Made by a program: the position numbers and the translations under genes. The notes under the pieces are model-generated. The model was not told where the DNA came from. It saw only the letters and a list, made by a program, of their open reading frames with translations, and did no database searches. This document shows, in pieces, positions 4,230 to 17,634 of a stretch of 30,004 bases of DNA (position 1 is the stretch's first letter; each line of letters begins with the position of its first letter). Origin of the DNA: a virus; IMG/VR virus record IMGVR_UViG_3300035010_000018, positions 1 to 30,004 of that record. One strand, written 5' to 3'.

Positions 4230-5235
4230 TGCTTTTAATTTTAAATGATATTTTGTTTTGTCTCTTGATTCCGTCGGAACCGTTGATTGTCGTATTTACC
4301 GTGTCAATAAAATATTGTCCGTCACGGTAACCGGTTGGATAGTTCGGGTCTTTGATCTGAGCGCTGTCTCCTGGTTCAGTTCTGGGATAGAACCATCCAT
4401 CAATAGAACCCTCGTATCCGTCAAAAACTATTGAGTTGTAATGTTTTTCACACCATTCTTTCAGCTGCTGCTGTGATAGATTGAGCGGTGCATGAAGCGA
4501 AATTTCGCTTTCTCCCACGTCTCCAAATTCGTACGTTACTTTTTTGTTAGCGGATCCTTTTTGCATACTGACCGCTTTTATAAACCTTTTACGACTTTCT
4601 TTCGTTTTGTACTTCAGGTCTGTACTTGATCTGATGTTTTTTCCGAAAGTGAAATCGTGCATTATTTGAGGTTTAAAATCAACCGTCAAACCGGCATAAA
4701 GAACTTTACCTTTAAAAAAGCATCGAACACCGTATTTATCTTTGAGGTCCTCTATAACCTTGTATGGCGTTGCGCGCTCAATCATATATTTGCCCACTGG
4801 CATATCAAGTGCCTGGATCTGATATCCGGGTGCAATGAATTGTAATACTTCTCTCAGTGTGGCGGACTTAAAAGTGTGGTTAATAAGCGGCATCTTTTTA
4901 AGCTTATACATTTCATCCTCGCATTCCAGCACAATAGGTATTTCCGCCCCTACCTCCGTTATATATCCGGAAAACTCCGTGAACAGTTCGTTATTGTAAC
5001 CAGCTTCTATCACAATGGAATCTCCAGCTTTGATATAATCTAAAAGGTTTTTACGTTCAAGTGAAAGCCTTTTATTATTTTCTTCGGCTTTTTTAAACTC
5101 CCTGGGCAGTTCAATTTTCGCGGTATCTGAGAATTTCTCTATACTGCTTTCGATGGAGATTGAACTGGCAATATGAAACCGTACCCGTTCTGCAATAGTG
5201 ATCCGGATACTGATATTATAGTAATGAAAAGGCAT
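4111..5235 (-). CDS. Tail hub protein, gpD/Mu gp44-like
   Basis: A 374-residue protein resembling the late control gpD/T4 gp27 hub family. An early beta-rich domain contains the pattern SSIEKFSDTAKIELPRE and then IKAGDSIVIEAGYN, matching the 'S-x-x-x-x-T-x-x-I-x-L/P ... G-D-x-V-x-I-x-x-G' opening of hubs. A middle domain has LREVLQFIAPGYQIQ followed by a KYGVRCFFKGKVLYAG motif. The C terminus is very basic and coincides with the overlapping start of the spanin candidate. The hub joins the tail tube to the spike. It starts at the stop of the DUF6046 gene. Confidence 0.75.
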   Translation of the reverse strand: MPFHYYNISIRITIAERVRFHIASSISIESSIEKFSDTAKIELPREFKKAEENNKRLSLERKNLLDYIKAGDSIVIEAGYNNELFTEFSGYITEVGAEIPIVLECEDEMYKLKKMPLINHTFKSATLREVLQFIAPGYQIQALDMPVGKYMIERATPYKVIEDLKDKYGVRCFFKGKVLYAGLTVDFKPQIMHDFTFGKNIRSSTDLKYKTKESRKRFIKAVSMQKGSANKKVTYEFGDVGESEISLHAPLNLSQQQLKEWCEKHYNSIVFDGYEGSIDGWFYPRTEPGDSAQIKDPNYPTGYRDGQYFIDTVNTTINGSDGIKRQNKISFKIKSNEEFNRPTYGHITVTPRVQRKTKDKPGTKSIIPATRRKR

Positions 5236-5852
5236 TATGAATTCGGATTAATAAGAGTAAATGACACCTCGTTTATACTGGAAGCAGCTAAAGTAAACTG
5301 AACTGTATCCATATAGCCCTCTACCGGCGTTATAGAAACATCTTTTAGATAAATCCTTGAGATATTTTTTTCGACAAATTGATCTCCCTCTATTTTTAAA
5401 GTATCATTTACTTCAAATAATCTACAAAGGTCTTCGACCTTTTGCGTAGGATACTTCCTGTTATGTAGATCAATCAAAATCCCTCTCATTTCGATGTTCC
5501 AGGGTTTTGTTCCCCAACGTTCGACCACAACTGCATCACCACCGGAAACTTCTGTTTCAATTAGATTTTTTTCCCTGGAAAAATTAATCATCATAGGTGG
5601 AGCATAAATCGATCCGTTTCCATCACTTTCCAACATCTGGGAAAACCTTAACTTAACTTCGTTTTCTGCTATTCCGTATATTAAAGTTATAGCCTCAAAG
5701 TCCGGATCATAATCATCATAAACCTGTATATCATAATCGTTTTCGCTTCGTGTAACAACAGCCTGGTTAATCCGGTTATTGATTGCCATGATTCCAAAAG
5801 CCGCTGCGTAGCGTGCCGTAAGATTTAAAACAACTGATTCACCTATATTCAT
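5235..5852 (-). CDS. DUF6046-like tail protein
   Basis: A 205-residue protein with the core YAPPMMINFSREKNLIETEV followed by a gap and then IEMRGILIDLHNRKYPTQKVEDLCRLFE, which I recognise as the DUF6046 pattern found in Bacteroidota contractile-tail prophages. It sits between the tail chaperones and the gpD-like hub, where Mu has gp43 (DNA circularisation/LysM type). A role in linking tube to baseplate is likely but inferred. Its ATG shares one base with the stop of the frameshifted chaperone frame (TAATG), which supports that frame being translated. Confidence 0.6.
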   Translation of the reverse strand: MNIGESVVLNLTARYAAAFGIMAINNRINQAVVTRSENDYDIQVYDDYDPDFEAITLIYGIAENEVKLRFSQMLESDGNGSIYAPPMMINFSREKNLIETEVSGGDAVVVERWGTKPWNIEMRGILIDLHNRKYPTQKVEDLCRLFEVNDTLKIEGDQFVEKNISRIYLKDVSITPVEGYMDTVQFTLAASSINEVSFTLINPNS

Positions 5853-6357
5853 TATGTTAATTTTTTAACGCTTAAAATCCCCATATCTGCCAGCCATCCG
5901 ATCTGCGCCCATTTCATTGCCCAGGTGTCATCATCGAGCTCCTCCGGAAAGGGAACATGAAGGAAGTGGCTGATTAAGGCGTCCGCCTTCATGAACAAAT
6001 CACTTTCCTGGTTATAGTTTAGGCCGGAGCCTTCTAAACTTTCCCAAACTTTCCCTGACGGATAGGAATCAATTCAGTTAACAATCCGGCAGCCGCATAA
6101 AATAGCCCGTCGTCTGCCATTACGCGTTCTTTTTCTGTCAGAATGCAATTTTTTACTAAAATTTCCTGCCCCTTTTTCGGGTCTGAGTTCATGAATTTCA
6201 TCGACTGACCAACAACGGAACGTTCCGGCACCAACGCCAGAACCTCAAGTTCTTCAGTTGCCTCATCGTTCAGGGGTAGAATTAATGATTTAAGTTTATC
6301 TCCATGCTCTTTTTTTAGAGCGTCTTTGGTTTCCTGGCTTACTGGTTGTAATGACAT
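5852..6357 (-). CDS. Tail assembly chaperone, long form made by -1 frameshift
   Basis: This joins the upstream frame (codons 1-103, 6357-6049) to the -1 frame from 6049 to the TAA at 5854-5852, giving about 168 residues instead of 107. The extension contains the segment DDDTWAMKWAQIGWLADMGI near its end and has no stop. In lambda-like and P2-like phages the longer chaperone (gpGT, E+E') carries the C-terminal part that recruits tube subunits to the tape measure. The slippery site, spacer and hairpin are listed separately. The extension cannot be a good independent gene at its 5' end because it overlaps the upstream frame. It is seen as an open frame; its translation by frameshift is inferred. 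Confidence 0.8.
6016..6040 (-). other. Likely frameshift-stimulating hairpin
   Basis: Starting 8 nt after the slippery heptamer, AGTTTAG (6040-6034) can pair with CTAAACT (6022-6016). The 11-nt loop can itself form AGGC/GCCT around TCCG in an alternative fold. The zero-frame TAG stop lies in the 5' arm. A spacer of 8 nt is within the range known to favour -1 frameshifting. The pairing is seen; the stimulating role is inferred. Confidence 0.6.
6034..6357 (-). CDS. Tail assembly chaperone, short form
   Basis: A 107-residue protein directly downstream of the tail tube gene. It begins with a helical acidic region (SQETKDALKKEHGDKLKSL), then contains a strand (LEVLALVPERSVVGQSM) and a KNCIL motif. 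This matches small tail chaperones of the gpG/Mu gp41 kind in length and position. It ends in TAG at 6036-6034 after the codons for QGKFGKV. The sequence immediately before that stop holds a lambda-type slippery site. It would bind tape measure protein during tail assembly. Note that the tape measure gene is far away at 15628-17634 on the other strand. Confidence 0.7.
   Translation of the reverse strand: MSLQPVSQETKDALKKEHGDKLKSLILPLNDEATEELEVLALVPERSVVGQSMKFMNSDPKKGQEILVKNCILTEKERVMADDGLFYAAAGLLTELIPIRQGKFGKV
6049..6055 (-). other. Programmed -1 frameshift slippery heptamer
   Basis: On the coding (minus) strand the heptamer reads G GGA AAG with codons 102-103 of the short chaperone in exactly the phase needed for tandem -1 slippage. 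It is the same heptamer as the lambda G/GT site. After slippage the next codon is GTT at 6049-6047, which opens 65 further codons. A second GGGAAAG at 6045-6039 is in the wrong phase. Confidence 0.8.
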
Positions 6358-6401: not shown

Positions 6402-6818
6402 CTAAGGCAGCACATCAAGATCCACCTTAAGGGCAAAAAGATCAAACTTTTTCTCAAGCCCCATATCGCCGGTCACTTCCCGGCCGTTGTTTTTGAATTT
6501 GGCAATGATCTTATCAACAATGATCACGTTGTACTCATTTACAAATTCAACTGTAATAGTAAAGGGTTTAATTTTTAGAATATCACCGCCGGCGGCTCTT
6601 TCAAGCGGAACAAGATCCGCCATCATTAAAGAGATTCCCGCAGATGGTGTTTTCTTACCCCATGACCAGGACGTGGCATCAATACCAAGCGTATGATTTA
6701 ATTGGTGCTCCTGCTCGTTTCCGTACTCGATTGACTTAACCTCGATCGGAATACCGTTCAGCTGCACCTTTACATCCGCACTATCATAGGCTTTCCCGTT
6801 TCTTATGATATCACTCAT
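6402..6818 (-). CDS. Tail tube protein
   Basis: A 138-residue beta-rich protein next to the sheath gene. The N-terminal strand region (YDSADVKVQLNGIPIEVKSI) followed by an EYGNEQEH turn, a GKKTPSAGISLMMADL segment and the closing FALKVDLDVLP strand fits contractile tail tube proteins. The length is usual for them. It would form the hexameric inner tube through which DNA passes. Order sheath, tube, chaperone pair is the standard contractile-tail order, which supports the call. Confidence 0.7.
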   Translation of the reverse strand: MSDIIRNGKAYDSADVKVQLNGIPIEVKSIEYGNEQEHQLNHTLGIDATSWSWGKKTPSAGISLMMADLVPLERAAGGDILKIKPFTITVEFVNEYNVIIVDKIIAKFKNNGREVTGDMGLEKKFDLFALKVDLDVLP

Positions 6819-6820
6819 GA

Positions 6821-8062
6821 TTACAATTTCGTTTTAAGGTTAATAGTTCCGTTAATCTCTCCAATATTACCCTTTGGCACTATACTGTATCCTACATTTA
6901 ACACCTTATTGACGATAACATCACTATCGGCATCGATGTAAGTCTTTCCTCCGGATATTTCGCCGGCTCTTTCCATATCTGCAAAAATTCCGTCACCGAT
7001 AGCACCCAGAGCAACCACCACACCAGGCATCAATTTGCCGGTATCTTTGTTCACTGCAGGATTGGTTTTAACTTTAGGCAGATAAGCAATCCTCAAAGCT
7101 CTTCGGGCCTTTTTTGCAGTTCGACCGTAAGCCACTGTATGCTCATTGATATTACCGTTATCATCAAGGATCACCGGCGCGCATACATGATCATTATTCA
7201 GTCTAACACCCGCAAGTCCGGTATAAGTAATTCCGAAAACATATCCTTTATTCTCCAGGGTTTGTAAATCAGAATACTGATCTTTTATTTTCTTATGGTT
7301 TGAAAGTCCTGGATTTACAAGAAGTTTTTTTGCTCCGTTGGTAAGATTTAGAGTTTCGTTTTCACCGATGTTCTGATTAACAGCACATGAGGCGCATACA
7401 CCCAGCACGGTGCCAATATTTGCGTACTTTTGAGCCAGTCCGGTCTTTTTCTCAGCAACATCGAAATCCTGGCCGATAACAACAGTAACACCTTCAGCCG
7501 GTAGATCCGGAAGAGCTCTAAGGTTGGCGGAACTGGAAGCATTGCCACCGTAAGCATAGCCTTCCAGGAATATAGACACGGGCATATGATTCTCTTCTGA
7601 CCACTCCTCTAATAGTTTTGCAGTTGCAATACTATTGTAAACATCATCCGGAACACCATTGAGCATTACAAGCGTAGATCCGGCTGTGAGATTGACACCT
7701 ATTGCCACCTGCTTAATCTTTCCTTCAGCAAAAATCATCAGCTTTTTAGCCGGGGCATCACAGAGATCGACAAGCTTTTTCGTTTGCTCTTCAAGGATTA
7801 AATAGAGCTCAGTTGACGAACCTGCGAACCGATAAAATTCGGATAGGTGTTCATAGACATGTACGTTATTTTCCGAATCATAAGCTGCATCAATTCCCAA
7901 TGCTTCAACGTCATTAAGGTTATACACTACAACAGGAAAATCATATTCTAACCCTGAAGGTTTAGGCCCGGTCAATACAATTCCCGAAATGGAGTCGTCC
8001 GTTCCCAGTCGGTTGGTTCCGACATTGCCTCTTTTAATATTTACTCCGTTAATATTTGACAT
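6821..8062 (-). CDS. Tail sheath protein (DUF2586-like)
   Basis: A 413-residue protein that fits the DUF2586 sheath family of Bacteroidota and Mu-like phages. Features include an N-terminal strand with NINGVNIKRGNVG, an SGIVLTGPKP motif, a variable outer domain in the middle (about 110-240), and a C-terminal domain containing VKTNPAVNKDTGKLMPG and GAIGDGIFADMERAG, ending in a strand that would donate to the neighbouring subunit. The sheath contracts on infection. It lies one gene downstream of the capsid gene and three bases upstream of the tube gene. Confidence 0.75.
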   Translation of the reverse strand: MSNINGVNIKRGNVGTNRLGTDDSISGIVLTGPKPSGLEYDFPVVVYNLNDVEALGIDAAYDSENNVHVYEHLSEFYRFAGSSTELYLILEEQTKKLVDLCDAPAKKLMIFAEGKIKQVAIGVNLTAGSTLVMLNGVPDDVYNSIATAKLLEEWSEENHMPVSIFLEGYAYGGNASSSANLRALPDLPAEGVTVVIGQDFDVAEKKTGLAQKYANIGTVLGVCASCAVNQNIGENETLNLTNGAKKLLVNPGLSNHKKIKDQYSDLQTLENKGYVFGITYTGLAGVRLNNDHVCAPVILDDNGNINEHTVAYGRTAKKARRALRIAYLPKVKTNPAVNKDTGKLMPGVVVALGAIGDGIFADMERAGEISGGKTYIDADSDVIVNKVLNVGYSIVPKGNIGEINGTINLKTKL

Positions 8063-8068
8063 TGTTAA

Positions 8069-8338
8069 TTATTTAGGGTTTTGACCTGCATTATCTGCAT
8101 CACCAGCATTAGAAGTGTCATCAGCAGTATTGTTTACTTCGTCTTTTTTAGACTCAGCTTTTGGACGTTTTACCGTTTCGATTTTACCGATAACAGCACC
8201 GTCCTTGTCTTTTGGCAAGCTGTAACGTGCAAAATCAGGATCAGTGAACCATTCACCCGCTGGGTTCAGAAATAGCTCCGGAAACTGCGGATTATCTTTG
8301 AAAAGCTGATCCGCATATTGTTTTTGATCTTTTGTCAT
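8069..8338 (-). CDS. Small protein between capsid and sheath, unknown function
   Basis: An 89-residue protein. The N-terminal half has an ordered, aromatic-rich pattern (QFPELFLNPAGEWFTDPDFARY). The C-terminal 30 residues are a low-complexity acidic Asn/Asp/Ala tail. The FLNPAGEWFTDPDFA segment resembles small phage proteins often seen after the capsid gene in Bacteroidota prophages, but I cannot name the family. A head decoration or head-tail joining role would fit the position only. A hairpin lies between this gene and the capsid gene. Confidence 0.5.
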   Translation of the reverse strand: MTKDQKQYADQLFKDNPQFPELFLNPAGEWFTDPDFARYSLPKDKDGAVIGKIETVKRPKAESKKDEVNNTADDTSNAGDADNAGQNPK

Positions 8339-8361
8339 AAAATTTTAGATTGTTAGAATAA

Positions 8362-8383
8362 ATCGGCTCACGTTTGAGCCGAT
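8362..8383 (-). terminator. Hairpin after the capsid gene, possible attenuator
   Basis: ATCGGCTC (8362-8369) and GAGCCGAT (8376-8383) form a perfect 8-bp stem with a 6-nt loop in the 62-bp gap downstream of the capsid gene. On the minus strand only a weak T tract follows, so it looks like a partial terminator or an mRNA 3' protector that keeps capsid mRNA high relative to tail mRNA. Confidence 0.5.
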
Positions 8384-8400
8384 GTTTTTAATGGATATTA

Positions 8401-9318
8401 TTACTCGTTATCTGAAACAATCGCTCCGAAGCCGTGCTCCTGCTTTTTCTCAGTAAGGCCGTATGTGTGGAGCCTTACTTCTGATTGTGGGTCTTTTGAA
8501 CGGGTATCATTCTTTCTTTCTTTGAAAAGTACCGATACAGCTTCGATATGATAAACCGTATTCGGTGCATAATAGAAGACTGATGCTCTCTGATCGCCCA
8601 CCGCTGGAACTGCACCGAGTGACTTTAAATTTCCGTCGGTACCATAAAGTGGCGTGTCATTATTTTCAAAAAATTTCATTTTAAAGAACCTTTTGATCTC
8701 GCCGGTTTCTTTATCAAACTCCAGGTCACGGTAGTTATTTGTATTTGCTCTGTCAGCTAATAGATCCGATCTGTGCTCATCACTCAATACAGTGTAAAGG
8801 CCGTTTTTGTCCGGAAGGTTTAATTTTAAGACTCTATTGTAAAAATTTAATAGGTCTTTGTAGGTAAGTCTTTTTCTGCCTTCAAACACTTCACCGGTAG
8901 TTCTGATAACAGGCATATGACCATCCACATTTTTTTTCGGTGCCAGCTTATTCAATGAATAATCTCTAACTCCAATTTTAAAAGTATTGGTATGTTCCAC
9001 CCTTATCGCTGCCTCTTTATCGAAAGCCATTCCGCGAAGTTCTTTGTCTGTGCATAGGGTTGGTGTAGTATCCAGCTTATCCCATAAGATCAGACCTTTT
9101 TTTCCTGTCATTGGCACTGGTGTAAAGTCTGAATCAGCGTTAACTTTAAAGCCAACATTGTTAATAAGTTTGTTAAACAGGATTCCATCCTCACCAATGG
9201 CAGCAGGGTTTGGTGCCTTTAGCGTGCCGATAAAATCGTCATTGTAGTTCCTGAAGTCTTCCAGTAACTGGGGCTCTAAAAATTGGACCGTCCATAATCC
9301 GTCTTGCATTTCTCCCAT
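8401..9318 (-). CDS. Major capsid protein
   Basis: A 305-residue protein directly after the protease/scaffold gene, the Mu order I-Z-T. It opens with WTVQFLEPQLLEDFRNYNDDFIGTL and has the central segment AAIRVEHTNTFKIGVRDYSLNKLAPKK; both look like the N arm and spine parts of Bacteroidota Mu-like capsid proteins. The C-terminal half contains VFYYAPNTVYHIEAV, a beta strand typical of the capsid A domain, and RLHTYGLTEKKQ near the end. I expect an HK97 fold. The gene is followed by a hairpin, as for highly expressed structural genes. Confidence 0.7.
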   Translation of the reverse strand: MGEMQDGLWTVQFLEPQLLEDFRNYNDDFIGTLKAPNPAAIGEDGILFNKLINNVGFKVNADSDFTPVPMTGKKGLILWDKLDTTPTLCTDKELRGMAFDKEAAIRVEHTNTFKIGVRDYSLNKLAPKKNVDGHMPVIRTTGEVFEGRKRLTYKDLLNFYNRVLKLNLPDKNGLYTVLSDEHRSDLLADRANTNNYRDLEFDKETGEIKRFFKMKFFENNDTPLYGTDGNLKSLGAVPAVGDQRASVFYYAPNTVYHIEAVSVLFKERKNDTRSKDPQSEVRLHTYGLTEKKQEHGFGAIVSDNE

Positions 9319-13120: not shown

Positions 13121-15622
13121 ATGAGAATATTCGGATACGAAATATCAAAGCCAAAAAAGCCCGTTTCTGCGGCTTCCGGAAATTCGGCTCCCGTTAAAGC
13201 AAATCCAAAGATTACACAGATCGCTCAAAGCTTTAAAGATAACAGCCGGAAAGATATCCAAAAATGGAGACAGGCACTTACGGCGACTATGAATCCTGAT
13301 GAGCCTAAATTCAATATTTATTATGATCTCGTGGACGATCTTTTAACCGACGGTCACACTCAGTCACAAATAGAAATGCGTAAAAGCTCCACGCTGAACA
13401 CGGACCACCACGTTATCAACCGGAAGACTAAAAAGGTAAATGAAGAAATTTCTTTTGTCCTTCAGCAGCAGTGGTTCTATAAGTTCCTGGACGGCGCAAT
13501 GGATGAAACAATTAAGGGGACGAACCTTGCAGAGTTCACTTATTTTCAAGGCCCCAATATTGGAATTAATTTCATTCCCCGCAGAAACATAGTTCCAACC
13601 AGGAAGAAGATCCTTCCCGATTTAACAAAACCGGACTTTATCAATTATGCGGATCCTGCATTTGCGCCCTGGTTACTGCAAATCGGGGAAGATTACAATT
13701 TAGGGATTATTAACAATATTATCCCGAACTTGATCTGGAAACGGAATGTAATGCAGGCTTGGGCAGAATTCTGCGAAAAGTTTGGAATGCCTTTGATTAC
13801 CGCTACCGTTAACACAACGGATACACGGGTTGTGGATAATGTTCACGAAATGTTAATTGCTTTAGGACAGGCGGGCGTAGGTACTTTTCCCCACGGAACT
13901 ACGGTACAGTTCCAGGAAGCTAATCGTACGGATGCCTATCAGGTATATGACAAATTCATGCAGGCGAACACGAATGAGATCTCAAAGATTCTGGTCGGTT
14001 CTACCATGCTGAGCGACCAGGGAACGAACCGCTCACAAACCGAAGTACATGAAAGATCACTCGACAATAGAATCGCCCAGGCAGACAAAAGAAAAATTCA
14101 GTTTTTAGTAAATGACCAGCTTTTCCCGTTACTCCGGTTACAGGGATATAACATAAGCGAAGACGATATTTTCGAGTTTAAAACTGCCGAACAGGAAACA
14201 TCACTAACAGAATTGTGGAATATCACCAGTGGACTTTTGAATAACGGATACGAAGTCGAACAAGAATGGATGAGCCAAACCTTCAACATACCCATTGAAG
14301 GCAAAAAAAAAACAGCTGAACCAGCCGTTGGATCCGCTAAAATAGCAGCACAATATTTTACCGGTCCTATGAACAAGATTCCGGACCGGTATGACTTCGT
14401 ATGCACATGCGGTAAGCATACTGCTGCTATATCAGCCGGACACGATGACAATATCAAAAAAGGCGTAAAAAAGCTTATTAAAGCCATTTTCAACAACGAG
14501 GATATCATAGGAGCAAAAGGAGAACTTATCGCCAATGAAGCTATCTTATTGGCGGAAGGTTTACGCGATAATTTTAAAACTTTCAGCCCATACACAGGCC
14601 CCGATCAGCTGGTCCTTCAGATGATGGAATATAATTGCTTCGAGTTTTCAGCAAGCAAGACAGAAGCGCGTTACGCCTCTATGATGGAACTTATGACGGA
14701 CGGAGAAAACGGCATACGCTCTTATCCTGAATTTGAAAGATTGTGCCTTGAAAAAACCGCTGATCTCAATACCCGGTACTTAGAAACAGAATATAATTTA
14801 AGCGTAGCTGTTGGACAAAATTCAGCTGCATATGTGCGTTTCATGGCAGAAAAGGACACTGTTACAAAATTAGTGCAGTATCAAACCGTCGGTGACGAAG
14901 TTGTGCGGGAAGCACACAGGATCCTGGAAGGTAAAATTTTCTCACTGGAAGATCCCGAAGCTATGAAACTCTGGCCGCCGAATGGTTTCGGCTGCCGATG
15001 TGAAATGCTTCAGTATATCGGATCCGGAAAAGTTACGCCAGGAAAAACAGGTCAGGAGCTTATGTATTCCAGGGATGTTAAATATAAAGGTTCACAGTTT
15101 GAAATAAACCGTGGTGATCTAAAGCAGGTGTTCACACAAAAACAGTTTTACAGTGACAACAAAGGACTGACTTCTGATATCAGTAAAATGACTTTTGATA
15201 AGTACGGGTTACAGAAATACAGTGATTTTAAAAAGGATTTACTGCCTGCTAAACTTGACAAAACCATCAATCCGGACAATGTTAAAGAACTCTTTAAAAA
15301 AGAAAAGGGACAGGATTATATGGGTTATACGGATTACCTGGGACGTAAAATGGTGCTTCCCGAGAAAAATTTTGATAAATCTATCAAAAATGATAAACAC
15401 CAAATGTTTCCACAAATTAAAAACATTCTGAACAAACCGGACGAAGTGTGGTTCAATGAACATAAAGACAAAACATTCAATTCCAATTACATTAAGTTTT
15501 TTAAGGATATGGCCATCCTTGTTAAAGTGGCTTTAAATCCGGAAATGGAAGGGCTGGAAATACTGGACTGGATCATTATGGCAGATGAACTGAAGCAAAG
15601 AGCCGGATTAAAAATAAAATAA
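13121..15622 (+). CDS. Portal protein fused to MuF domain and C-terminal PBECR-like nuclease
   Basis: An 833-residue protein covering what Mu makes as gp29 and gp30. Residues 1-400 fit the DUF935 portal family (IPNLIWKRNVMQAWAEFCEK, FGMPLITATV, then QTEVHERSLDNRIAQADK). Residues 425-435 hold CTCGKH. Residues 540-632 fit the Mu F-like minor head domain, ending in VREAHRIL and PPNGFGCRCE (His599, Cys625, Cys627). The last 100 residues (GYTDYLGRKMVLPEKNF, then PQIKNILNKPDEVWFNE) match the pattern of phage Barnase-EndoU-ColicinE5/D-RelE-like nucleases. MuF proteins with such tails are known as phage-borne polymorphic toxins. The portal and MuF calls are good; the nuclease call is by pattern. Confidence 0.8.
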   Translation: MRIFGYEISKPKKPVSAASGNSAPVKANPKITQIAQSFKDNSRKDIQKWRQALTATMNPDEPKFNIYYDLVDDLLTDGHTQSQIEMRKSSTLNTDHHVINRKTKKVNEEISFVLQQQWFYKFLDGAMDETIKGTNLAEFTYFQGPNIGINFIPRRNIVPTRKKILPDLTKPDFINYADPAFAPWLLQIGEDYNLGIINNIIPNLIWKRNVMQAWAEFCEKFGMPLITATVNTTDTRVVDNVHEMLIALGQAGVGTFPHGTTVQFQEANRTDAYQVYDKFMQANTNEISKILVGSTMLSDQGTNRSQTEVHERSLDNRIAQADKRKIQFLVNDQLFPLLRLQGYNISEDDIFEFKTAEQETSLTELWNITSGLLNNGYEVEQEWMSQTFNIPIEGKKKTAEPAVGSAKIAAQYFTGPMNKIPDRYDFVCTCGKHTAAISAGHDDNIKKGVKKLIKAIFNNEDIIGAKGELIANEAILLAEGLRDNFKTFSPYTGPDQLVLQMMEYNCFEFSASKTEARYASMMELMTDGENGIRSYPEFERLCLEKTADLNTRYLETEYNLSVAVGQNSAAYVRFMAEKDTVTKLVQYQTVGDEVVREAHRILEGKIFSLEDPEAMKLWPPNGFGCRCEMLQYIGSGKVTPGKTGQELMYSRDVKYKGSQFEINRGDLKQVFTQKQFYSDNKGLTSDISKMTFDKYGLQKYSDFKKDLLPAKLDKTINPDNVKELFKKEKGQDYMGYTDYLGRKMVLPEKNFDKSIKNDKHQMFPQIKNILNKPDEVWFNEHKDKTFNSNYIKFFKDMAILVKVALNPEMEGLEILDWIIMADELKQRAGLKIK

Positions 15623-15627
15623 ACAAT

Positions 15628-17634
15628 ATGGCCACAACAAAATTAATGATGTTAGTTGATCTGAGCGCAAAGCTTTTCAACAACAACATGCAAAAATTAC
15701 AGAGCAAGTGGGAAAAGGGTGTTGATAAAATGCGGGCTAAATGGAAGAGTCTCGTAGACGATATCCCTGGCTTGAATGGCGCGCTGGATAAAATTAAAAA
15801 CCCAGCGCTCTTGTTCGGTTCCTTGTTTGCAGCTTCCGTCGGTTTCCTGGGAACCGCTACCAAGATGGCGAGCGACTGGGACACCAAACTCGCGGAAATT
15901 AACGTCACTGCCGGACTTACTAAAGAAGGGCTCCGGGATCTGGGTAATCAGCTCCTCGATGTCGGAGCAAGAAATGCCAGTCCCCTGGATGAAGTGCCAA
16001 AAGCTTTCTCACGTATTATTTCAGCTGGCTTAAATGTTGACCAGTCATTAAAAGCCCTGGAACCAACCGTGCGGGCAGCAAAGGCGGGGTTCACTGACGT
16101 GGAAACAGTAGCAAGTGCCGGGATTTCCGTAATGATGTCTTCCGGAAAAGATATCAACAAGGTCTACGATGTACTTTTTCAGACAGTGAAAGAAGGTAAC
16201 GCGGAATTTAAGGATATCGCACGATATCTCCCTAAAGTAATACCGCTGGCCCGAAGTATCGGTTACGAACTGGAGGCCACGTCCGGAGCATACGCATCAT
16301 TAACCACAAAATTAAGTGCAGAACAATCCTCTACCGCGTTAGAGGGGATCATGAGAACGTTATCTAATGCCGACGTAGCAATCGGGAAAACCGACAAAAA
16401 AACCGGAAAATTTATCAGTGGTTTCAGATCACTCGGAATTAACATCTTCACCTCTACCGGAAAAATCAGGCCACTGATCGATATCGTTATGGAGCTTAAC
16501 AAACAGATGGACGGGCTGTCTGATGAACAAAAAGTAAGAAAATTAAGTAAGTTAGGGTTTGACCAATCTACGGCACTGGGATTTGGTACGTTAATGCAGG
16601 ATATTGAAGGATTAAAAAAAGCCACATTAGCAACCACCGATTCTATCGGCTCGTTAGATCAGGCTTACATCGATTCATTAACACCGACAGAACAATATGA
16701 TATCGCACAGAACCGGGTAAAAGCATCCATGATCAAATTAGGACAGGAAGCATTACCATATATGACCGCCGCAATGGAAAAGTTAGCACCAGTTTTTGAA
16801 TGGATGTACAAGCATTCCGACGTATTAATCCCCGTCTTTTTGGCACTCACCGGAACTTTAGGACTATTAACCGCTGCGACGTGGTTGTGGAATATTGCAT
16901 TAGCAGCGAACCCTGTTACATGGATTATTATTGGAATCGCGGCACTTGTTGCTATGGTAGCGGCATGTATTGTAAAATGGGACGAATGGGGAGCAACCGT
17001 CATTAAATTTCTGGGGCCGATCGGCTGGGTTATTTCCGCGGTTGTGACACTTGTAAAACATTGGGATAGTATTAAAAAGGCTTTCCAGGACGGCGGAATT
17101 TTAGAAGGTTTAAAAAGAATCGGTGTTGTTTTGATGGATGTCATTCTACAACCGATTGAGCAAATATTGGGCTTAATAGCAAAACTTCCTGGATCTTTAG
17201 GGAGAACCGCAAAAGAGATGCAGGGTACGGTCCACAAGTTTAGAGAAAATATGGACCTGACCGATACACAAGACGAAGTTAACGCAAAGCTTCGAGCGAA
17301 CGGGCTGGAAATTATGAAGCAGTATGCAGACCAGTACGACAAACAGAAAAACGCTAAAACGCCCCTGGATCCTAATTCTTTATATGGAACTACCGGCGGA
17401 GCCTTCAAAGATGAATCTGCTGAAGCAGAAAAGAAAAAAAAGCTGAAGGACGGCGTAAATAAAGTGACCGGTGATGCTAAACAAGTCCGTAACATAAAAA
17501 TTACAATAGGCTCACTGAATTCGGGCGGAATCAATGTAAAAGAAGATGCATTCAAAGGAATGACGAAGGAGGATGTTGAAAACTGGTTTAATGAGTCCAT
17601 GATGAGAATGATCAGAAACGTAGAAACAAGTTAA
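15628..17634 (+). CDS. Tail tape measure protein
   Basis: A 668-residue protein. Residues about 75-290 fit the TP901-type tape measure core (ASDWDTKLAEINVTAGLT, then FSRIISAGLNVDQSLKALE and a LPKVIPLARSIGYELE motif). A long hydrophobic stretch at about 395-452 contains two or three membrane-like segments, as expected for tape measures that insert into the host membrane. The C terminus is charged. Length would set a medium-length tail. Unusually it lies in the rightward head operon, between the portal fusion and gpG-like gene, while sheath, tube and chaperones are on the other strand 7-9 kb away. Confidence 0.85.
   Translation: MATTKLMMLVDLSAKLFNNNMQKLQSKWEKGVDKMRAKWKSLVDDIPGLNGALDKIKNPALLFGSLFAASVGFLGTATKMASDWDTKLAEINVTAGLTKEGLRDLGNQLLDVGARNASPLDEVPKAFSRIISAGLNVDQSLKALEPTVRAAKAGFTDVETVASAGISVMMSSGKDINKVYDVLFQTVKEGNAEFKDIARYLPKVIPLARSIGYELEATSGAYASLTTKLSAEQSSTALEGIMRTLSNADVAIGKTDKKTGKFISGFRSLGINIFTSTGKIRPLIDIVMELNKQMDGLSDEQKVRKLSKLGFDQSTALGFGTLMQDIEGLKKATLATTDSIGSLDQAYIDSLTPTEQYDIAQNRVKASMIKLGQEALPYMTAAMEKLAPVFEWMYKHSDVLIPVFLALTGTLGLLTAATWLWNIALAANPVTWIIIGIAALVAMVAACIVKWDEWGATVIKFLGPIGWVISAVVTLVKHWDSIKKAFQDGGILEGLKRIGVVLMDVILQPIEQILGLIAKLPGSLGRTAKEMQGTVHKFRENMDLTDTQDEVNAKLRANGLEIMKQYADQYDKQKNAKTPLDPNSLYGTTGGAFKDESAEAEKKKKLKDGVNKVTGDAKQVRNIKITIGSLNSGGINVKEDAFKGMTKEDVENWFNESMMRMIRNVETS

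Follow-up and report, generated by a model that had tools for sequence, protein, structure and literature searches.

Among the described systems that lie closest to the locus analysed here, phage lambda (G/GT) and the contractile-tailed phage P2 (E/E+E') both produce a tail chaperone that is extended by frameshifting; G GGA AAG is lambda's own slip site, and the heptamer used by P2 is T-rich. In lambda, a short chaperone (gpG) and a low-level −1 frameshift fusion (gpGT) are encoded between tail genes, and one account describes G GGA AAG as highly shift-prone in E. coli and also mentions P2 (PMC5009743). The gp41 region of phage Mu, in which the chaperone adjoins the tube gene, is reported in PMC2628397, which cites Xu et al. 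2004, to shift by −2. In addition, the solved structures 3FGX (RBSTP2171), 2OB9 (HK97 gp13) and 3KLU (YqbN) are given as phage tail assembly chaperones in PMC9603447.

The window, by which we mean the whole stretch of DNA that was analysed, comprises the 30,004 bases of a virus record (IMG/VR IMGVR_UViG_3300035010_000018). Like phage Mu, it contains Mu-like portal and head genes, with a Mu-type portal and a Mu F domain in one protein, plus a transposase and a DNA transposition protein. A single 833-aa open reading frame at 13121-15622 carries Portal_Mu and Phage_Mu_F together with a PBECR2 nuclease-like domain. The genes that concern us are the following.

6821..8062, minus strand: tail sheath (DUF2586, phrog_907).
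6402..6818, minus strand: tail tube-like protein, directly upstream of the chaperone (phrog_4579 tail protein, 3.6e-9).
6034..6357, minus strand: predicted tail assembly chaperone of the zero frame (gpG-like), 107 aa and then a TAG (open reading frame, phrog_19076 match, AF2 model).
5852..6049, minus strand: predicted −1 frame extension (gpT-like), 65 aa plus TAA (reading frame, pN/pS, AF2 helices).
5235..5852, minus strand: next gene, DUF6046, whose start overlaps the stop of the extension as TAATG.
15628..17634, plus strand: tape-measure protein (PF10145 1.1e-30, phrog_28).

The best PHROG match of the tube-like protein is phrog_9206, which is named major head protein, and the same protein is 33% identical to a 'tail protein' that adjoins the sheath gene in phage pippi8-1.

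The zero-frame reading frame (6357-6034) encodes 107 aa and ends CAG GGA AAG TTT GGG AAA GTT TAG. Within and beyond this 3' end lie the elements listed here.

6049..6055, minus strand: candidate slip site, the heptamer G GGA AAG read in phase as X XXY YYZ (sequence; kept in 26/26 distinct sequences).
6041..6048, minus strand: 8-nt spacer from the heptamer to a putative stem (sequence).
6039..6045, minus strand: second copy of GGGAAAG, out of slip phase, 10 nt on from the first.
6034..6036, minus strand: TAG that ends the zero frame, 12 nt past the heptamer (TAG in 26/26 distinct sequences).
6016..6040, minus strand: putative 7-bp hairpin, AGTTTAG 6040-6034 with CTAAACT 6022-6016 (not supported as a conserved element).
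5990..5992, minus strand: ATG within the extension, at its codon 20 (17/32 distinct sequences lack it at that position).

The initial annotation of this DNA had proposed a G GGA AAG in exact slip phase near the end of the chaperone, an 8-nt spacer, a −1 frame of 65 codons that ends in TAATG with the next gene, and a Met about 20 codons into the extension, and each of these is present in the window (6055-6049, 6048-6041, a TAA at 5854-5852 and an in-frame ATG at 5990-5992, respectively). Past the slip, the −1 frame reads VWESLEG...KKLT to this TAA, the final A of which is shared with the ATG of the next gene, and the predicted fusion product has 168 aa (103 + 65). The two copies of the heptamer belong to a 10-nt tandem repeat at 6036-6055, GGGAAAGTTT, and the second copy is retained in most close relatives (not in L058, L060 or L076).

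On the basis of its modelled form, which matches solved chaperones, the 107-aa protein is very probably a tail assembly chaperone. Its AF2 model, built from a 32-sequence alignment, has a pLDDT of 95.1 and a pTM of 0.83, and Foldseek matches it to 3FGX (E 1.9e-4) and then to the HK97 tail assembly chaperone 2OB9 (E 0.16). VIA-align gave 3FGX a Z of 10.3 over 91 residues, followed by HK97 gp13 (2OB9, Z 6.0) and YqbN (3KLU, Z 5.2), the latter two values falling in the range that this tool calls common. A profile-sequence search also ranked 3FGX first (E 1.1e-4). The protein appears to share the fold of HK97 gp13, YqbN and RBSTP2171 at a sequence identity of 5-23% in the structural alignments. 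A Pfam search of the chaperone returned no convincing family, and all 32 family members that were scanned match phrog_19076, which is catalogued as 'unknown function'. For the extension, the model shows a small helical domain (helices 18-30 and 40-55, pLDDT 77.6, with ends of low confidence); searched alone it gave no convincing Pfam, PHROG or fold match, and the best viral fold match, at E 0.11, was not used.

A lone in-phase heptamer is weak evidence for a programmed slip. When the same protein was recoded at random with synonymous codons according to the codon usage of the window, 25% of the recodings placed an in-phase heptamer in the last 16 codons, so the heptamer in this single genome was not used as proof; among control genes, 1/13 has one. 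An open −1 frame of 62 codons has a p of about 0.036 under a first-order Markov model of the region, and open −1 frames of such length are often supplied by downstream genes.

Comparison across relatives provides what we regard as the decisive evidence that the site exceeds chance. In a first protein scan, the heptamer stands 19 nt ahead of the zero-frame stop in the window and in 16/16 relatives, and a scan for the exact 23-mer found 23 contigs. Because selection on the heptamer was to be avoided, a site-unbiased set of 30 loci was chosen by similarity of the zero-frame protein (about 55% identity or more), which with the window makes 31 loci, 26 of them distinct. In this set, chosen without reference to the heptamer, GGGAAAG with a TAG 12 nt on is present in all 31 loci (26/26 distinct). 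When the last 60 codons were examined for columns with an invariant residue (n=19, not counting M and W), the sole single-codon columns proved to be GGA and AAG, and AAG accounts for only 21% of the codons for Lys across these genes. Among the 32 distinct sequences of a wider set, each of which was required to have the heptamer, the codon before GGA is CAG in 28 and ACG in 4, so the final G is kept through a change from Gln to Thr.

These counts also bear on the idea that a sequencing error or a recent frameshift mutation has split one gene. A single genome viewed by itself does look like a broken open reading frame, but the same break, site and stop recur in 26/26 distinct sequences and an equivalent break is found in 28/29 distinct distant loci; this comparison among relatives refutes the idea, and the probability left to it is negligible.

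If the −1 frame is translated, it should evolve as protein, and across the 32 sequences it does so, also upstream of the internal Met, and the off-frame controls do not. Proportions of changed sites (pN, pS) are quoted here because dS is saturated. From codon 7 of the extension, pN is 0.220 and pS 0.737; for the part ahead of the internal Met the values are 0.306 and 0.699, and for the overlap region 0.041 and 0.277. From the KADAL codons on, pN/pS is 0.162/0.778 in the −1 frame, compared with 0.278/0.244 and 0.329/0.126 in the other two frames.

The extension could also be a separate small gene that is started inside the −1 frame, for instance at the ATG of codon 20, with the heptamer incidental. 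The window has both this ATG and a purine-rich AGGAAAG upstream of it, and in phage fF4 the two parts are annotated as separate hypothetical proteins. The start is not shared, however: ATG occupies the position of the internal Met in 15/32 distinct sequences, and between the upstream stop of the −1 frame and the conserved KADA motif 16/32 have no ATG and 12/32 have no ATG, GTG or TTG at all. An internal start common to the family therefore fails to account for the extension, and it was rejected as a shared mechanism. A separate gene would moreover leave unexplained both the protein-like constraint on the stretch ahead of the Met and the fixation of the GGA and AAG codons, and we consider it very unlikely.

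It had also been claimed that a 7-bp hairpin containing the zero-frame stop forms part of the signal. The stem is present, and its 5' arm AGTTTAG does contain the TAG, but its place in the signal lacks support from covariation: 0/8 pairs are altered on both sides among relatives, and RNAalifold predicts no consensus pairing. Stem pairs are lost singly in up to 7/27 sequences, the innermost in 14/27, and over the 27 distinct rows 82.9% of stem cells pair, versus 83.6% in shuffles. When the 3' arm is slid along, pairing falls to 49% or below, a drop to be expected if the stem was taken from one member sequence. In the window itself, folding of the hairpin has a z of −1.64, and 17/200 shuffles fold as well. 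Since it lacks covariation and RNAalifold pairs and is broken in some relatives, the hairpin was rejected as a conserved element; it is unproven and should not be counted in the putative frameshift signal. When local folding was followed along the gene in 32 sequences, the slip itself had a mean z of −0.84 and the stretch immediately upstream one of −1.02. The strongest folding near the slip (mean z −1.93, 32 sequences) lies about 50 nt downstream, at about 5949-5998, where the KADAL codons are; structure thus peaks elsewhere than at the slip.

Relatives occur in Winoviridae phages, as well as in genomes that carry the names Tenacibaculum, Elizabethkingia, Flavobacterium, Chitinophagaceae, Dysgonomonas, Bacteroides and Prevotellaceae. 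Profile and single-sequence scans extended to gut and other phages and gave a distant set of 32 examined loci, of which three are duplicates (L077, L078, L095) and 29 distinct; L082 (Planctomycetaceae, a chance match without extension), L096 (at a contig end) and L104 (Myxococcus phage Mx4, too weak a relative) were left out of the counts. Among phage records, 6 of 19 were examined, besides fF4 and MT835775. In 28/29 distinct distant loci the zero frame stops 3 nt after a slip-like site. Ten nucleotides ahead of the zero-frame stop, the sequence is A AAA AAR or A AAA AAC in 17/29, G GAA AAR or G GTA AAR/C in 10/29 and G GGG GAG in 1/29. The sole exception is L103 (Bacteroides phage BS-TP1), in which no slip-like site was found 10 nt ahead of the stop. 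In all 29 but L088, which meets a contig end, the −1 extension continues for 51 codons or more beyond the stop, and the extensions align through a common motif, D..L....LH..P..L.D..WA. In three loci (L084, L087, L098) the −1 frame is open for just four codons ahead of the stop, which pins the shift to the slip site. Distant relatives in gut Bacteroidales phages appear to switch likewise to the −1 frame, at A AAA AAG/C or at non-canonical sites.

The non-canonical slip-like sites (G GAA AAR, G GTA AAR/C, G GGG GAG) are found in L064, L066, L081, L084, L085, L087, L091, L092, L093, L101 and L102, and others have A AAA AAG there. At G GAA AAG and G GTA AAC, judging from the codons, the P-site tRNA would be unable to re-pair in the −1 frame by normal rules. 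Pattern searches with ARAGORN spot checks (G001-G007) found tRNA-Lys(CUU) genes in Dysgonomonas, Bacteroides and Chitinophagaceae genomes and none in four Flavobacteriales genomes (Tenacibaculum, two; Elizabethkingia, one; Flavobacterium davisii, one); such a pattern may miss genes, and the binning of metagenome-assembled genomes (MAGs) may err. The possibility that AAG at the site tracks the absence of tRNA-Lys(CUU) was rejected: a Bacteroides MAG with A AAA AAG and a Chitinophagaceae MAG with G GGA AAG both have the CUU gene, so there is no clean rule that links the two.

Some distant relatives have six or seven A at the site, as slippage by RNA polymerase instead of the ribosome might use. 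The GGGAAAG of the window, however, has no run longer than three, and the phase of the heptamer is fixed in 26/26 distinct sequences, which makes a transcriptional slip highly improbable.

A programmed −1 frameshift that yields a lambda G/GT-type long chaperone is very probably the correct reading of this locus. It is strongly supported by computation because the site is conserved, the −1 extension is protein-like and constrained in its frame, no internal start is shared, the short protein has a chaperone fold and the gene order of relatives agrees; in these respects, the proposal of the initial annotation that a Bacteroidota Mu-like phage encodes such a pair stands. We infer the following scheme for whether and how often ribosomes slip in vivo and for what each form does. 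Most ribosomes would read the chaperone gene to the TAG and release the 107-aa form, and a minority would slip one base back on G GGA AAG, where the tRNAs on GGA and AAG could re-pair with GGG and AAA. Slipped ribosomes would continue for 65 codons to produce the 168-aa fusion. If the parallel with lambda holds, the short form may coat the tape-measure protein and the C-terminal domain of the long form may recruit tube subunits. For the protein of the window, trypsin would cut the junction peptide (GK then VWESLEG) right where the two frames meet, between the K of GK and the V that follows. The expected Glu-C peptides are LIPIRQGKVWE for the fusion and LIPIRQGKFGKV for the short form, and the expected tryptic peptide VWESLEGSGLNYNQESDLFMK would report −1 translation ahead of the internal Met.

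Gene order shows where this locus agrees with, and departs from, the known systems. The lambda G/GT and P2 arrangement that had been assigned to it holds on the tube side, since the chaperone gene adjoins the tail tube gene, but not on the other: sheath, tube and chaperone share one strand, and the tape-measure gene is on the other, about 9 kb from the chaperone and not downstream of it. The same opposite-strand placement, by the portal gene, is found in relatives with enough flank (L025, L034, L067, L069, L070, L072, L074, L075, L076 and L078). Elsewhere the chaperone is followed by the tape-measure gene, as in pippi8-1 and FPSV-S1 (L099, L100), L042 and the Bacteroides loci L079 and L080; in the Winoviridae phages pippi8-1 and FPSV-S1, the related gene sits between the tube and tape-measure genes. 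The frameshift pair stayed with the tube gene where the tape-measure gene sits elsewhere. The window phage differs from P2 and lambda in position relative to the tape-measure gene, and from lambda also in being a contractile-tailed, Mu-like phage of Bacteroidota. It also differs from Mu, reported to use a −2 shift (PMC2628397), since its conserved extension lies in the −1 frame, and a −2 shift would enter the +1 frame.

Among Winoviridae, fF4 carries the same gene with G GGA AAG, and pippi8-1 and FPSV-S1 carry it with A AAA AAG; in fF4 and other members, the parts are annotated as hypothetical proteins and not joined. The public record of fF4 (L041) has two separate hypothetical proteins at 7980-8515, and that of FPSV-S1 has no CDS for the extension. 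In titles and the openings of abstracts, the literature searched gave no description of a chaperone frameshift in Bacteroidota or Winoviridae phages; the word 'frameshift' is absent from the available parts of PMC8776804 and PMC12135933, and occurs once, about spanins, in that of PMC10367356. This is a known kind of system in a phage group for which the literature, searched to that depth, holds no description.

We give an even chance to a broader proposal, in which the A-site tRNA slips alone at the non-canonical sites, or some other route suited to Bacteroidota ribosomes is used, and in which the pair survived a move of the tape-measure gene to the opposite strand in the branch of the window. 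The analysis offers a likely function and a recoding event for phrog_19076, and indicates that in Winoviridae and their relatives the long chaperone is overlooked when genes are annotated. Natural sites of canonical and non-canonical kinds, from hosts in which a tRNA-Lys(CUU) gene either was or was not detected, make up a ready test set for slippage by the Bacteroidota ribosome.
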